In this document: in pieces, positions 26,085 through 33,138 of the stretch | Position numbering within the stretch: the stretch's first letter is position 1 | Layout of the letters: every line of letters begins with the position of its first letter | Source of the DNA: Verrucomicrobia bacterium LW23 | GTDB taxonomy: Bacteria > Verrucomicrobiota > Verrucomicrobiia > Methylacidiphilales > UBA1321 | Direction of reading: 5' to 3' | Length of the DNA stretch: 64,000 nucleotides | Assembly: GCA_003054695.1 (NCBI GenBank) | Contig: QAZA01000009.1 | Location: 1 to 64,000, forward strand | Position numbers and translations under genes: made by a program | Notes under the pieces: model-generated | What the model saw: only the letters and a program-made list of their open reading frames with translations | The model's database searches: none | Told to the model about the DNA's origin: nothing

Positions 26085-29000
26085 TTACTCTGTCTCGCGT
26101 ACCGTGCGGGGACGGGGGGCGGGGCGAACGGGCGGGGCGACGGGGATATCAGCGCCGGCGGGGTCCAGCTCCTCGACGACCTTCTTTTTGGGCGCGCGCT
26201 TGCGGCTGCCCTGGGGGGCGGGGAACATGGTGGAGAAAACTTTGGCCGCCAGGCCGCCGGCGTCGGAGCCACCGTGCAGGTCCTGGTCAAAGTCACCTTC
26301 CACCATTACGGAGAAGGCGTACTGCGGGTTATCGGCGGGGAAGTAGCCGCCCAGCCAGGCAATCTGGCGGGGCTTCTTTTTGGAGCCCACCTGCGCCGTA
26401 CCGGTTTTACAAGCCACCTTAAGGTGGGGGACAGTGTTGCCGACAAGGCTGGCGGTACCGGACTGGGCGACGGTTTGCATCGCCTCCTTGATGGCCGCCT
26501 GGATGTCGGGCGGCGGCATGGGGATCTGCCTGATGATCTCGGGCTGAAAGACATGGAAGGGGCGGCCGTTGGCGTCCTCCAGAGAGGCGGCCATGCGCGG
26601 TTTGTAGAGAACGCCACCGTTGGCAAGCGCGGCCATGGCGTTGGCCATTTGCAGCGGGGTGGCCAGCACGTCGCCCTGGCCGATGGAGGCGTTGGCGATA
26701 TCGCCGCCGCCCATGTTGCGCTGGTGGCGCGCGCGGACGAACTCGGGCGTGGGGAACATGCCGGGCACCTCGCCGGGCAGGTCGATGCCGGTCTTTTGGC
26801 CAAAGCCCCAGGTGTGGGCCATCTCCAGCATCGCATCGCGGCCGGCGCGGTTCACACCCATGTCCAGGAAGTAGGTGTTAATCGACCAGCGGAACGCCTC
26901 CTTAAAGGCGTAGTTGCCAACCTCCTTGGGCAGGTTGTAGTGCGTGGTGCCCACGTCAAAATAGCCGGGGCAGTTGACGACGCGCCGGGGATCGAACTTG
27001 CCGATGGAGGCGGCCGCCAGCACGGTAAACGTCTTGAACACGGAGCCCGGCGGGTTGCGGTGGGCGATGACGTTGTTGCGCAGCGGATTCTTTTTGCCGG
27101 ACCCGGGGGAGGAAGGCGCGGTGAGGGCTGTCCACACCTCCTCCGGCAGGGACGGGATCCAGTCATTAGGGTTAAAGTTGGGCTTGGAGGCCGAGACGAC
27201 GATGGCGCCGGAGTGCACGTCCACCACCACAATGGCGCCGGAGCGTATCTTGTCGATATGCAGCTCGGCCGCGGCCTGGAACTTGTGGTTGAGGGTGGTG
27301 CGCAGCGTTTTGCCGGGCAGCGCGGCGGAGTCGACGATGACGCGATCGACGTAGCCCTCGGGCGTGGTCGCAATCGTTACATGGCCGTCGGTGCCTTTGA
27401 GGTCGTTGTTATACACCTGTTCGAGCCCCGCGCCCCCGTTAAAGTCCTCGTACATTACCTCGCCCGCCTTGTACTCGCCACGGCTTACACCCTGCGATTT
27501 GCGTAAATAGCCCAGCACGTGCGAGGCCATGGTGCTTTGCGGGTACACGCGGCGCGGAATGCCCTGGAGGAAAAAGCCCTCACCCACCAGCGGGCTGTTC
27601 GGGAACGCGTCAATCTGCTCGGGGGAGATATCTTCGGCGATCGTCAGCGGCTGAAAGCGTTTGAACGTAAAGAGCGACTGCAGCTCGTCGTCCGGGATAG
27701 TGATGGGCTTGCGCGTCCAGTTGGCGGCCTTGTTGATCTTGGCGCGAGCCCAGGCGATGGCCGTGCTTTCGCTCGGCGCGATATCCGGCCCCGGCCACGG
27801 CAGCACAATGTTGTAGGTCTGGCGCATGGTGGCCAGCAGCTCGCCGTCGTTGGTAATGATGTTGCCCCGCATGGCCGGCAGCCGGTACTTGGCAATGCGC
27901 GGGATAACTGCCGCGGCTTTGGGGACGCTGGGGCCCTCTTCGTCCGTATCCACGTCTGCGGTCTCGTCGTCGTCCTCCATGCTGGGCGTCTGCAGCGAGG
28001 CCATCATGGTAAAGTTGCTGGTGCCGGTATCCTGGAAATTCTGCGGGCTGGTCAGCGCGTTGCTGCGCATCCACACACCAATGCAATCCTGCTTGGGCAC
28101 AAAGCCCACGACGCCCTCGATGGTGCCCTTTTTGCGGTTGAGGTTCACCTTCACGAGATCCTTGGCCGAGGGAGGGGCAAAAGTGCCGCCCTTGGGCTCG
28201 ATCATCATCACTTTCTCCATAATCCCGGCCCACAGGGGGATGGCGGAGGCGCGGGCAATCTTTTTGTTGCCGATGGCGCGGGAGCTGTCAAAGCCCATCC
28301 ACACGGCGCTGATCATCGAGGGCGTGTAGCCCACGTAATAGGCATCGCGGTAGCCCGTGCTGTACGCGGGCATGCCGGCCACGGGCGCCGGAATGTTGAA
28401 GTCCTTCTTTAACCGGCGGCCCTGGCCTTCGCCGCTGGCGCTCAGCAACGTTTGCTGCATGGCCTGCGTGTCCGACGGGCTGGCCCAGCTTTTCTCCGCG
28501 GCGGTGGGGTCTTCCTGGTAAATAACCTCGCCTTTTTGGTTGGTGACAGAGGAGATAAGGTGAAGCTTTTTGGTCGCGCCGTCGTGGTTAAACACCTGGT
28601 ACAGGTTGCAGATCTCCCACAGTGTGAGGTTGGAAAGATCGATGCGCTTGGGGGTGTCCAGGTTGCCCGCTACCACGCCGGAGTTACGAAGCCAGTCAAA
28701 AAACGGGTTGAGCCCCATGTGCAGCGCCAGGCGGATGGCGACGTGCTGGTTGCCGCTGACGGTCGCGTCGTACAGCGTCATAAAGCGCGTGCCGATATCC
28801 CGCTGCGGGTTGCCCAGGGCGGCCTCTTGCGCGCTCAGCACGTCGTCGGGGTTAAAATAGGTGGCGTTGATCATCGACGCCGGGCTGAAATTGAGCGACT
28901 GGAACGCCTTGAGGAACAGAAGCGGATAGATGAGCGCCCCGTTCTCGCGCCGGGCCTGAGTGGCGCGGTCAAACTGGCTTTCCATGAAGCTGCGGCCGCC

Positions 29001-30173
29001 GATCAGCACGCGCACGGCGCCTGTCTTGGAGTCCGCAACGATGCACGCGCCTTGCAGCGGATTGGCCTTGAAGTCGACCGCCTCGCGCAGCTTGGCAATG
29101 TCGTCCTCAATCTTTTTGGCCTGCTCCTCCAGCACCTGCTGGGCGGCGCGCTGCATGCGCATGTCGATGGTGGTGACGATGTTAAGGCCGGCCGGTATGC
29201 TCGTTTCGTCGTCGCCGCCGGTGCTGGGCAGAATCTGCAGCAGCTCCTTCAACGCAAGGCTGGCATAGTAGCTGCGCACGCCGGGTGGTTTCTCCGGGTA
29301 AATGCGGATGTTGGTGGAGCGCGCCGTCTGCTCCTCCTCGGGCGTGATGTAGCCGAGCTCGCGCATCTTGGCCAGGGCCACGTTGCGGCGGTCGCGCGCT
29401 TTCTCCGGGGCGCGGCGCGGGCTGGTGGAGTTGGGGGAGCGGATGATGCCGGCCAGCATCGCCATCTCGCCAATCGTCAGGTCCGATGCACTTTTGTTGA
29501 AGTAGCCGCGCGCCGCCGAGGCCAGGCCGAAGTGGCCTTTGCCGAAGTAAATGCGGTTGAGGTAGTAATCCAGGATTTTATCCTTGGATAGCTTTTGCTC
29601 GATACGCAGCGCCACAAAAAACTCGGTGAGCTTACGGTCCAGCGTACGCGAGAAGTTGTTCATCAGGTGCTTGGCCAGCTGCTGCGAGATGGTGGAGCCG
29701 CCCTGGCGAAGCTGGCCGGAGGCAAGGTTGCGCACCAGCGCGCGGACAAGGCCGATGTAGTCGATGCCCTGGTGATAATAAAAGCGCTCATCTTCCACAG
29801 CCACAACGGCATCGCGCATTTTCTGCGGAATCTGGTCGTGGGTGAGGATGGTGCGATCCTCCGTAAAGATGCGGCCGATTTCCTCGCCGGAGCGGTCGTA
29901 CATCATCGTGGTGACGGGCAGGTCGTCGAGCGCGGAGATGTTGTACTCGGCGGCGATCCTGTCGTACCGGTCGATGACAATCAGCGCCATGGCGCCGACG
30001 ATGCCGGTGATGATGCCCGTGCCCCATGCGGCCAGGATGATGAGATGCCGGATGGTTTGCCAGAGACGCGAAGGCTTGCGGGACTTGTGCGAGGGGGGCG
30101 TTATCGGGTCGTGACGATCACGAGGCTGCCGCGCGAGTTTCTTTCGCGGGAGCGTCGACATCCGATCGTGCAT
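26085..30173 (-). CDS. fused class A + class B penicillin-binding protein (GT51, dead transpeptidase, PBP2-type transpeptidase)
   Basis: A 1362-residue protein with one membrane anchor (about 41-68) and three enzyme units. Residues about 90-265 are a complete GT51 glycosyltransferase: VAVEDERFYYHQGID with the catalytic Glu at 127, GGSTISQQLAKHL, and KILDYYLNRIYFG. Residues about 372-650 align with a class A transpeptidase, but SxxK is replaced by ALIY (413-416, in NGALIYPLL where PGSSFKPF is usual) and KTG by MPA (601-603, before YRDAYYVGYTP); SGN survives at 473-475. Residues about 755-1310 are a class B PBP2/FtsI-like unit with a dimerisation region (RGNIITNDGELLA) and intact SVFK (1044-1047), SIN (1097-1099) and KTG (1256-1258). 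It would polymerise and cross-link peptidoglycan in one chain. ATG 30161 is an alternative start. Same strand as the pseudoprotease upstream and the Cys-patch gene and dcd downstream. Confidence 0.9.
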   Translation of the reverse strand: MHDRMSTLPRKKLARQPRDRHDPITPPSHKSRKPSRLWQTIRHLIILAAWGTGIITGIVGAMALIVIDRYDRIAAEYNISALDDLPVTTMMYDRSGEEIGRIFTEDRTILTHDQIPQKMRDAVVAVEDERFYYHQGIDYIGLVRALVRNLASGQLRQGGSTISQQLAKHLMNNFSRTLDRKLTEFFVALRIEQKLSKDKILDYYLNRIYFGKGHFGLASAARGYFNKSASDLTIGEMAMLAGIIRSPNSTSPRRAPEKARDRRNVALAKMRELGYITPEEEQTARSTNIRIYPEKPPGVRSYYASLALKELLQILPSTGGDDETSIPAGLNIVTTIDMRMQRAAQQVLEEQAKKIEDDIAKLREAVDFKANPLQGACIVADSKTGAVRVLIGGRSFMESQFDRATQARRENGALIYPLLFLKAFQSLNFSPASMINATYFNPDDVLSAQEAALGNPQRDIGTRFMTLYDATVSGNQHVAIRLALHMGLNPFFDWLRNSGVVAGNLDTPKRIDLSNLTLWEICNLYQVFNHDGATKKLHLISSVTNQKGEVIYQEDPTAAEKSWASPSDTQAMQQTLLSASGEGQGRRLKKDFNIPAPVAGMPAYSTGYRDAYYVGYTPSMISAVWMGFDSSRAIGNKKIARASAIPLWAGIMEKVMMIEPKGGTFAPPSAKDLVKVNLNRKKGTIEGVVGFVPKQDCIGVWMRSNALTSPQNFQDTGTSNFTMMASLQTPSMEDDDETADVDTDEEGPSVPKAAAVIPRIAKYRLPAMRGNIITNDGELLATMRQTYNIVLPWPGPDIAPSESTAIAWARAKINKAANWTRKPITIPDDELQSLFTFKRFQPLTIAEDISPEQIDAFPNSPLVGEGFFLQGIPRRVYPQSTMASHVLGYLRKSQGVSRGEYKAGEVMYEDFNGGAGLEQVYNNDLKGTDGHVTIATTPEGYVDRVIVDSAALPGKTLRTTLNHKFQAAAELHIDKIRSGAIVVVDVHSGAIVVSASKPNFNPNDWIPSLPEEVWTALTAPSSPGSGKKNPLRNNVIAHRNPPGSVFKTFTVLAAASIGKFDPRRVVNCPGYFDVGTTHYNLPKEVGNYAFKEAFRWSINTYFLDMGVNRAGRDAMLEMAHTWGFGQKTGIDLPGEVPGMFPTPEFVRARHQRNMGGGDIANASIGQGDVLATPLQMANAMAALANGGVLYKPRMAASLEDANGRPFHVFQPEIIRQIPMPPPDIQAAIKEAMQTVAQSGTASLVGNTVPHLKVACKTGTAQVGSKKKPRQIAWLGGYFPADNPQYAFSVMVEGDFDQDLHGGSDAGGLAAKVFSTMFPAPQGSRKRAPKKKVVEELDPAGADIPVAPPVRPAPRPRTVRETE

Positions 30174-30429: not shown

Positions 30430-32829
30430 CTATTCGCTCTCCATCAGCACGGGCACAACGGTTTCCATAGGCGCGCTTTCCACCGCCGCATTGCTTTTCT
30501 CCTCCACCACGGGCTCGATGTCGTCCTCCACCGGCGTGCGGGGAATCGGCTGCGCGGGAGCGAGCAGTATGCCATCCTGCACCTGGCTTTTGAAGGACGG
30601 CAGCGGCTTTTGCGCTGAGGTAAGCTGACCTGCGCCGGGCTGCGTCTGCTGCGTGCCTGCCTGCGTCGTCTCCGGCAAGGGCGCGTCGATAGGCGGAATG
30701 CGCGAGGGCGGGGGTGGGCCTGCGGGCATGGCGGAGGCCTTCGGCACGTAGCCCAGCTGCCAGCACATGTTGCCCAGCAGGGCGCAGCGCCAAAACTGCC
30801 GCAACGCCTCCAGTTTGTCGTCCATGCGACGGCTGCTGCGCAGGTACGAGGCGCGCTCGTACACAAGCTCTAAAATGTTGGTGTTGAGGCCGATAAGCTC
30901 CGCCATCGCAATACCGCGCCGCGCCGCAACGTCGGCGTACTGCGTCATAGCCTGCAGGGTGGCCTGCTGGGGGATGACCCACTCTTGCCGGGCGGAGTCA
31001 AAATAGCCGCCCATCTTGAGGTACTTGTGATCCAGCACGGAGACTTCGCAGTAATCGTTCACCCACTTCAGGCAGCGCGATGTATCGCTCAGCTTCACCG
31101 CCGCGGCCACCAGCTGGCCCTGCGCCGTGTTCATGTTGGTGGAGCGCGGCCGAGCGTAGGCGCCGCTCGGTTGCCAGCCGACGTTATGGTCGATCTTGGT
31201 ATTGGACTGCATGGAGAGCGCGTTGCTGACGCGCGACTCCCACTCTTTCTGAATCTCCTCCATCACGCGGGCGTAGGTGGAGAGGCGCGGGTCCAGCAGA
31301 ATCATATTGCCCAGCTGGTTGGCGTTATGCTTAAGCCCCTGCGCAAACAGTTCGGACGCACCTATTTGCGTTGGGATGAGCTGCTGCAGCCACACGGTCG
31401 CGCGGTTATACACGGCCACGTCGTCCTTGTGTACCAGCGGGTAAAGCTCCTTGTACGCCTCAAAGCTTTGCACCAGGTACTCGGTCTCCTCCACCGCCGT
31501 AAACATGCGGGTAATGGCCAGCTCCTTCTGCGCCTCCGTGGCGGTGCTGCGGGGGTGAAAGGCTTGCTGGGCAAAGATTTGTGAGCCTTCGAGGCGGGCG
31601 TTGATGGCGTAGCCCCAGTCGTGCGTCTCCGCAAAGCACACGCCGCTGTGCAGCTCGTTGTTGTCGACAGGCGGCTTGTACATCAGCTCGCGCACGCGGG
31701 CAATCAGCTGCGTTGCGCGGGCGTCCACGGTCTTGAAGTCGAGGTTGGCATTGCGCCACGCCTGCACTGCCTTCCACTTGGCGTTGGCCATTTGCAGCTT
31801 GCCCCAGCTTACGTAAAGGAGGCCGGCCTGGTAGGCGTCCATGCCTTCGTCGTAATTGTCAAACAGCTCGCGCCACAGCGTTTTCAGCTCCGGGCCGCCG
31901 GTTTTGTCCAGGCGATCGAGGTTGCGCTGCCAGGTGCCGGCTACCGTCTGCAGCTTGTTCATCTCCTTGCTGCACTGGTTGTTCAGATAGTCCCACAAGG
32001 CGCCGCGGTAGCCGTTGCCGCTGGTGGTGCTGGGCGGGGCGGGCAGCTTGCAGCGCAGCGTCTTTTCGGTCGCTTCGAGGAGGTCGGAGGCAAAGATAAT
32101 CTCCAGCCCCAGCGTTTTGGCGTAGTTCTCGATGCTGACGGTCTCACCGGCCGCATTCTTTTCAAAGCGTTGCAGGTTGGGGATAACGACGCGCTTCATC
32201 CCGGCGGCCGCGGCGGCGTCCAGGCGCGAGGCCATACCATTCACCGGGCCGAGGGACGTATCGGGGTTGAGAGAGCCGATGATGACGGTGTCCTTGGGAA
32301 ACACAACATCCGACGCCGTGGCGATCATGCCAACGCTCAGCGCCACACCTACACCCGGGCCGTCCACCTCGGGAATCTCCCGAACCGTCCAGCGCGAGGC
32401 GCGCCAGGGCTCCTGCCACACAATGGCGCTGCTGAGTGCGGAGATCCACAGCTGGGATTTCAGGACGTTCAACTGAGCGCCCTCCTGCGTATCAGGAAAG
32501 CGAAACACCAGCACGTCGTCGCCCATGGAGCTGCTGGCCGAGGCGTAGTCCCACCGCAGGCGCAACGGCGAGATGGCGGCCTTGGACTGGGACGATACAT
32601 ACAAGGGAAGCGGCACGCGCTGCTCAATCGCCTTCTCGGTCTTGATCAGCAGCGGAGGCTCCGTATTCTGCTGCTGCGCACGCGACGAGACTGCGCAAAC
32701 TGCTGCGAGAAAGAGAGTTACGGCAAGCGCGCAAAGGCGGGCAGCGTGACGACAAGCCTCCCTGGCCGCAAAACTGCGCGGCCGGTGCGGTTGCGAGGGG
32801 CAAAGCAGGGCAGGGGAGGGCGATCTCAT
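30430..32829 (-). CDS. exported Lon-like pseudoprotease with long helical domain
   Basis: A 799-residue exported protein. The ATG at 32829 leads into a basic segment and a signal peptide (about residues 31-51, cut near SSRAQ). Residues about 100-260 read as the proteolytic domain of Lon (S16): VDGPGVGVALSVGMIATASD, then IIGSLNPDTSLGPVNGMASR and AGMKRVVIPN. In active Lon these are DGPSAG and GGLKEK; here the Ser is Gly159 and the Lys position is Ala200, so the catalytic dyad is lost. The following ~480 residues are mostly helical and unfamiliar, and a Pro/Ala/Thr/Gln-rich tail closes the protein. A scaffold or binding role is more likely than proteolysis. It is 256 bases upstream of the fused penicillin-binding protein on the same strand, so a link to wall synthesis is possible but unproven. 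Confidence 0.65.
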   Translation of the reverse strand: MRSPSPALLCPSQPHRPRSFAAREACRHAARLCALAVTLFLAAVCAVSSRAQQQNTEPPLLIKTEKAIEQRVPLPLYVSSQSKAAISPLRLRWDYASASSSMGDDVLVFRFPDTQEGAQLNVLKSQLWISALSSAIVWQEPWRASRWTVREIPEVDGPGVGVALSVGMIATASDVVFPKDTVIIGSLNPDTSLGPVNGMASRLDAAAAAGMKRVVIPNLQRFEKNAAGETVSIENYAKTLGLEIIFASDLLEATEKTLRCKLPAPPSTTSGNGYRGALWDYLNNQCSKEMNKLQTVAGTWQRNLDRLDKTGGPELKTLWRELFDNYDEGMDAYQAGLLYVSWGKLQMANAKWKAVQAWRNANLDFKTVDARATQLIARVRELMYKPPVDNNELHSGVCFAETHDWGYAINARLEGSQIFAQQAFHPRSTATEAQKELAITRMFTAVEETEYLVQSFEAYKELYPLVHKDDVAVYNRATVWLQQLIPTQIGASELFAQGLKHNANQLGNMILLDPRLSTYARVMEEIQKEWESRVSNALSMQSNTKIDHNVGWQPSGAYARPRSTNMNTAQGQLVAAAVKLSDTSRCLKWVNDYCEVSVLDHKYLKMGGYFDSARQEWVIPQQATLQAMTQYADVAARRGIAMAELIGLNTNILELVYERASYLRSSRRMDDKLEALRQFWRCALLGNMCWQLGYVPKASAMPAGPPPPSRIPPIDAPLPETTQAGTQQTQPGAGQLTSAQKPLPSFKSQVQDGILLAPAQPIPRTPVEDDIEPVVEEKSNAAVESAPMETVVPVLMESE

Positions 32830-33138
32830 TAGTGAAAAGCACGCGGGCGGAAGGAAAGTTGCAGAGACCCGGTGCGCTGTATCTCTCAATAGTAGCGGGG
32901 TTGCGGAAAAAGTCCACGATTCTCCGAGAATTGGCCTGGAGCAAAGCGCAACCGACAGTACGAATACATAGCTAACCGCCTTAGTGCAAGACAGTTATCC
33001 TGTGTAAACGATTGCGGACCTGTTGCGGCGCTTTTTTGATGCGACGAGAGCCGGGTCGCATCCCGCCACACGAACAAGCTCCGCTTGTAATAAGCCGGCC
33101 CCAAGGCGCGATCTTGGCTGAACGACAGGAGGTTACGA
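32830..33138. promoter_or_regulatory. divergent intergenic region with strong ribosome-binding site
   Basis: About 310 bases between the divergent pseudoprotease and the small secreted protein gene. AGGAGG at 33127-33132, six bases before the ATG at 33139, is the clearest Shine-Dalgarno sequence in the window and fixes that start. A small hairpin, ACAAGC-TCC-GCTTGT, lies near 33074-33088 upstream of it. No RNA gene or further frame is supported. Confidence 0.5.

Follow-up and report, generated by a model that had tools for sequence, protein, structure and literature searches.

The gene at positions 26085-30173 of the window (the whole 64,000-nucleotide stretch of DNA that was analysed; all window coordinates given here are on the minus strand) encodes a single chain of 1362 residues that joins a class A to a class B penicillin-binding protein (PBP). 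Judged from its sequence, the product is probably (roughly 0.7) a membrane-anchored chimeric peptidoglycan synthase, in which a GT51 domain would polymerise glycan chains and a PBP2-derived transpeptidase would cross-link them without RodA. A PBP2-type cross-linker normally belongs to a complex separate from such a polymerase, and the coupling of polymerisation to cross-linking is a central question of cell-wall growth. Here a GT51 polymerase and a PBP2 cross-linker appear to have been united in evolution and the polymerase's original cross-linker disabled, leaving a pair that looks hard-wired.

Domain layout of the fused chain

Translation of the fusion gene (P0001) gave one frame with an ATG start, 1362 uninterrupted codons and no internal stop, reading in order through a membrane anchor, a GT51 domain, a class A transpeptidase fold, a linker, a PBP2-type pedestal and a class B transpeptidase. 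The predicted membrane anchor is an N-terminal hydrophobic segment at residues ~41-70 (29964-30053), located by Kyte-Doolittle hydropathy in 19-residue windows. It is the sole segment of this kind: the scan revealed no second hydrophobic helix ahead of the class B unit (before residue 765), and the chain, with its one hydrophobic segment, gave no Pfam match to the SEDS family. The GT51 glycosyltransferase was matched by Pfam PF00912 (Transgly) at residues 96-270 (29364-29888), and the motif table places its catalytic glutamates at E127 and E184, both of which are present in every fusion sequence that covers them.

The linker (residues ~690-758, 27900-28106) is acidic, of low conservation and free of any hydrophobic helix. 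It leads into a PBP2-type dimerisation or pedestal domain (PF03717, PBP_dimer; residues 765-942, 27348-27881), followed by the class B transpeptidase (PF00905; residues 979-1307, 26253-27239) with the motifs SVFK at 1044-1047, SIN at 1097-1099 and KTG at 1256-1258. Across the fusions, the class B SxxK is kept throughout, SxN with a single exception (SYD in L022) and KTG again throughout, as KSG in L148.

Pfam and NCBIfam searches recovered GT51, PBP_dimer and both transpeptidase stretches. This agrees with a sequence-only reading of the same DNA, which had described a full GT51 domain and a class B unit with its own dimerisation region and exactly these three motifs, all in one 1362-residue chain; the open frame is conserved across relatives. 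Pfam Transpeptidase matches the protein twice, the stronger match being that at 979-1307. Of the NCBIfam models, PBP_1a_fam (TIGR02074) matches residues 107-656 with a bit score of 459.2, below the family cut-off of 508.75, and pbp2_mrdA (TIGR03423) matches residues 759-1317 with 396.6, below its cut-off of 455. A fixed stoichiometry and the proximity of the predicted activities follow from the anatomy of the chain.

The class A transpeptidase fold

The stretch behind GT51 (residues ~373-655, 28209-29057) was assigned as a class A-type transpeptidase fold, and as a pseudo-transpeptidase, from its Pfam Transpeptidase and PBP_1a_fam matches, its motifs, a structural model and alignment with PDB structures. 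An AlphaFold model of residues 78-720, built from 33 sequences, reached a pLDDT of 87 and a pTM of 0.82, and aligned with the structures of E. coli PBP1b and A. baumannii PBP1a at Z scores of 38-42. The model indicates that the pseudo-domain retains the PBP fold; because the underlying alignment included active class A PBPs, it speaks for fold compatibility only and says nothing about a working pocket.

The catalytic motifs were compared with those of stand-alone class A PBPs from the same genomes and from the order, the nearest of which retain GSTxKP, S(D/N)N and KTGTT. At the corresponding positions the window protein reads A-L-I-Y for SxxK (residues 413-416, 28926-28937), M-P-A for KTG (residues 601-603, 28365-28373) and G-N-Q for SxN (residues 474-476, 28746-28754). 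The SxxK lysine is absent from 18 of 18 readable fusions and the serine from most of them, while the KTG lysine is absent from all 19, with Met in its place in all but one. Where class A PBPs have RQxGSTxKP, the fusions read RRENGALLQP or something close to it, and the SxN position is degenerate across the fusions, its exact register depending on the alignment. The sequence-only reading had listed this stretch as a class A-type transpeptidase region; the fold is indeed present, but the loss of its catalytic motifs had been missed. By its motifs, the class A transpeptidase of the fusion is dead, and the chain is predicted to combine one polymerase with a single cross-linker instead of two, its class A cross-linking domain being a pseudo-transpeptidase.

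The intact modelled fold would also suit a chain in which both transpeptidase domains are active, the class A one through non-canonical residues, and the SxxK serine does persist in a few fusions (L146, L147, L150 and L151). With the SxxK and KTG lysines gone from every readable member, we regard such dual activity as very improbable. To our knowledge, no PBP transpeptidase works without the SxxK lysine.

The residues of the dead site are themselves conserved. Among ten aligned members, R409, E410, N411, G412, A413, G600, M601, S605, G607, Y608, R609 and D610 are retained, and the fusions share the altered motifs RRENGA and G-M-x-x-x-S-x-GYRDA. Mean column identity is 0.70 in the pseudo-domain and 0.70 in the class B domain. 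Estimates of dN/dS (NG86, three closely related pairs) came to ~0.11 for the pseudo-domain, 0.07-0.08 for GT51 and 0.04-0.10 for the class B domain, all of them rough, with dS near saturation in some pairs. Every domain of the fusion is under purifying selection, and since the altered motif positions are conserved, a retained role fits, not decay; the constrained pseudo-domain might retain binding of substrate or of a partner. Separately, a second class A-like PBP of the host genome with degenerate transpeptidase motifs (RPSGAMLYP, no KTG), this one unfused, was found at G000:C50:296353-296874 (L004).

The joint in relatives and the origin of the fusion

The same joint is read in one frame in 19 genes (the window gene and 18 further ones) from 17 Verrucomicrobiota genomes of six family-level groups, the fused relatives being ~37-49% identical to the query; the sequence-only reading had suggested searching for homologs with this domain order. 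The carriers counted are G000 to G005, G007 to G012, G065, G075 and G077, together with G083 and G107, which have two genes each; a class-wide sample contributed five more genomes to the set. Contig ends truncate the genes of G008 and G011; G017 was left out of the count, its contig stopping short of the joint.

The sequence-only reading had also raised the prospect that two neighbouring genes had been merged by a frameshift, or by a join in the assembly, somewhere between residues 650 and 755. Class A and class B genes do adjoin elsewhere: on an Ensifer adhaerens plasmid (NZ_CP118611.1, L045) they lie next to each other in the same order, as separate ORFs. This two-gene pair was the best match in the plasmid collection, where a search for fused homologues at 80% query coverage found none. 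Because the one-frame joint is conserved across the 19 genes, an artefact of this kind is ruled out for practical purposes; moreover, the linker lacks the hydrophobic start typical of a class B PBP, and GC3 is even along the gene, also across the joint.

An identical second copy of the fusion is present in the assembly, one copy lying at the start of contig C9 and the other, inverted relative to it, at the start of C10. Sampled ends of C9 1-149508 and C10 1-149508 (G000) match in inverted orientation at 100% and 99.9% identity, consistent with an apparently unmerged contig overlap (dovetail) of ~149.5 kb. Given the match at both sampled ends, one locus is likelier than two gene copies in the host genome.

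Among the matches listed in the sampled genomes, the class A/class B fusion occurs only in Verrucomicrobiota, and several of the named carriers among these matches were deposited as Candidatus Methylacidiphilales. Its occurrence is patchy. A strong match was obtained in 10 of 171 genera of the class sample, a figure that includes G018 (class B unit only) and G017, and in 3 of 388 genomes of the phylum sample, G018 among them; within the order of G107, three of five genomes carry the fusion.

Class B halves of the fusions are 40-53% identical to the query and stand-alone PBP2-type proteins 36% or less, with the exception of the unfused G018 protein at 43%. In trees, the class A halves fall into a single clade apart from 34 stand-alone class A PBPs (SH-aLRT 100). 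Likewise, the class B halves cluster with G018 in one clade (100/100); its sister sequences are stand-alone PBP2-type proteins of Verrucomicrobiae. Because the class A halves group together and the class B halves do likewise, one fusion, after which the gene descended vertically, was lost or was transferred, is the simplest and most likely account. A fusions-only clade excluding G018 gave an AU p of 0.46, which fits both a fission in G018 and a pre-fusion state.

The G018 relative (L046 7868-9784) is a protein of 638 aa in which a signal-peptide-like N-terminus replaces the class A half, so the class B unit is able to exist alone. G107 (L147/L151) and G083 (L150/L152), which belong to one genus, each carry two divergent fusion genes; the fusion has therefore duplicated.

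Predicted mechanism, genomic setting and known systems

The mechanism that we infer takes in enzymatic activity, chain hand-over, independence from SEDS proteins and a role for the pseudo-domain. The GT51 domain would convert lipid II to glycan chains, and the class A transpeptidase fold would contribute no cross-linking; its role would instead be structural, as an arm, or regulatory, as a surface. The growing chain would then be handed to the C-terminal PBP2-derived transpeptidase of the same polypeptide, which would form the peptide cross-links. An AlphaFold model of residues 375-1322, spanning the pseudo-domain and the class B unit and built from nine sequences, reached a pLDDT of only 39, so the geometry of this hand-over is without structural support. 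The PBP2 unit would partner its own GT51 domain and probably not RodA or FtsW; independence from RodA is likely because the PBP2 transmembrane helix, which stimulates E. coli RodA (PMC10449877), is missing here. If the chain is active, a PBP2-type transpeptidase can function without RodA, and the fusion would offer a single-chain system in which to test nascent-chain transfer between the two activities. One beta-lactam-labelled band of ~150 kDa is predicted, together with moenomycin-sensitive polymerisation.

The host also encodes a PBP2 above the TIGR03423 cut-off (L008), an FtsI/SpoVD-type class B PBP (L007), a PBP1A-family enzyme above its cut-off with intact motifs (L003) and PBP1C-like enzymes, and it keeps two SEDS (RodA/FtsW-type) proteins and MreB. 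The fusion is thus an addition to the normal set. The retained SEDS proteins and MreB, and a pedestal of the type that contacts partners in PBP2, would be in keeping with a class B unit that still serves RodA, the fusion being no more than a scaffold that tethers GT51 to the Rod machinery. We consider this unlikely, as a separate full PBP2 is present and the fused unit has lost the very helix through which RodA is stimulated in E. coli (PMC10449877).

Immediately 5' of the fusion lies a gene (30430-32889) whose product has an N-terminal hydrophobic stretch and a weak Lon/S16 Pfam match; a Lon/S16-like gene is also found upstream of the fusion in G012, G004, G002, G075 and G107. Compared with the Lon motifs, both the protease serine (DGPGVG for DGPSAG) and the lysine (NGMASR for GGLKEK) have apparently been lost. 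The product is probably a pseudo-protease, to judge by these substitutions, and presumably shares a function with the fusion. Directly downstream of the fusion in G012, G077, G075 and G107, which represent four families, is a Cache-PAS sensor gene (L047 14109-15350, L146 4070-5140, L147 5428-6921 and L148 1-1449), with a HisKA histidine kinase domain in two; no such gene lies beside the window copy. The neighbour genes hint at a regulated use of the fusion.

These sensors, and the position of the fusion as an extra to a complete normal PBP set, are also what might be expected of a condition-specific or beta-lactam-tolerant back-up synthase whose class B unit has low affinity, like MRSA PBP2A. 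Such a role appears improbable for the window protein, which is not adjoined by a sensor gene and has no motif feature that marks low affinity. It concerns the role of the protein and is compatible with polymerisation and cross-linking by one chain as proposed above.

In the open-licence PMC papers searched, we found no description of a GT51-class B fusion, nor of a class A PBP in which a conserved dead transpeptidase precedes a class B unit. All domains of the fusion are already known. Like class A PBPs (PBP1A family, TIGR02074), it has an N-terminal anchor helix, after it a GT51 domain that retains the catalytic glutamates, and then a transpeptidase fold, and stand-alone class A relatives in the order are ~33-36% identical to it. 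Unlike them, it has no active SxxK, SxN and KTG after GT51, having lost all three motifs, and it carries a whole class B unit behind. Similarly, it shares with class B PBP2 (MrdA, TIGR03423) a PBP_dimer pedestal followed by a complete transpeptidase with SxxK, SxN and KTG, and its nearest stand-alone relatives, G018 apart, are Verrucomicrobiae PBP2-like proteins of up to 36% identity. It departs from PBP2 in that the unit sits behind GT51 in the same chain and its own membrane helix before the pedestal is gone.

Single-ORF SEDS-PBP fusions, both natural and engineered, are already known (PMC10449877), and they too place a polymerase and a class B transpeptidase in one polypeptide. In the present chain, however, the multi-spanning SEDS polymerase is absent; the polymerase is GT51, and a dead class A transpeptidase stands between the predicted activities. 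In MRSA, the GT51 domain of PBP2 is thought to pair with the separate PBP2A transpeptidase when the transpeptidase of PBP2 itself is blocked (PMC12369386), which likewise combines a class A GT51 with a class B transpeptidase while the class A transpeptidase is out of action. There, two proteins are involved and the domain is silenced by a drug, whereas here the domain is mutated and everything lies in one chain. We lean slightly towards regarding the fusion as a third kind of peptidoglycan synthase, alongside class A PBPs and SEDS-class B pairs, in which GT51 would feed a PBP2-derived transpeptidase within one chain, independently of SEDS proteins and with a conserved, non-catalytic class A domain.
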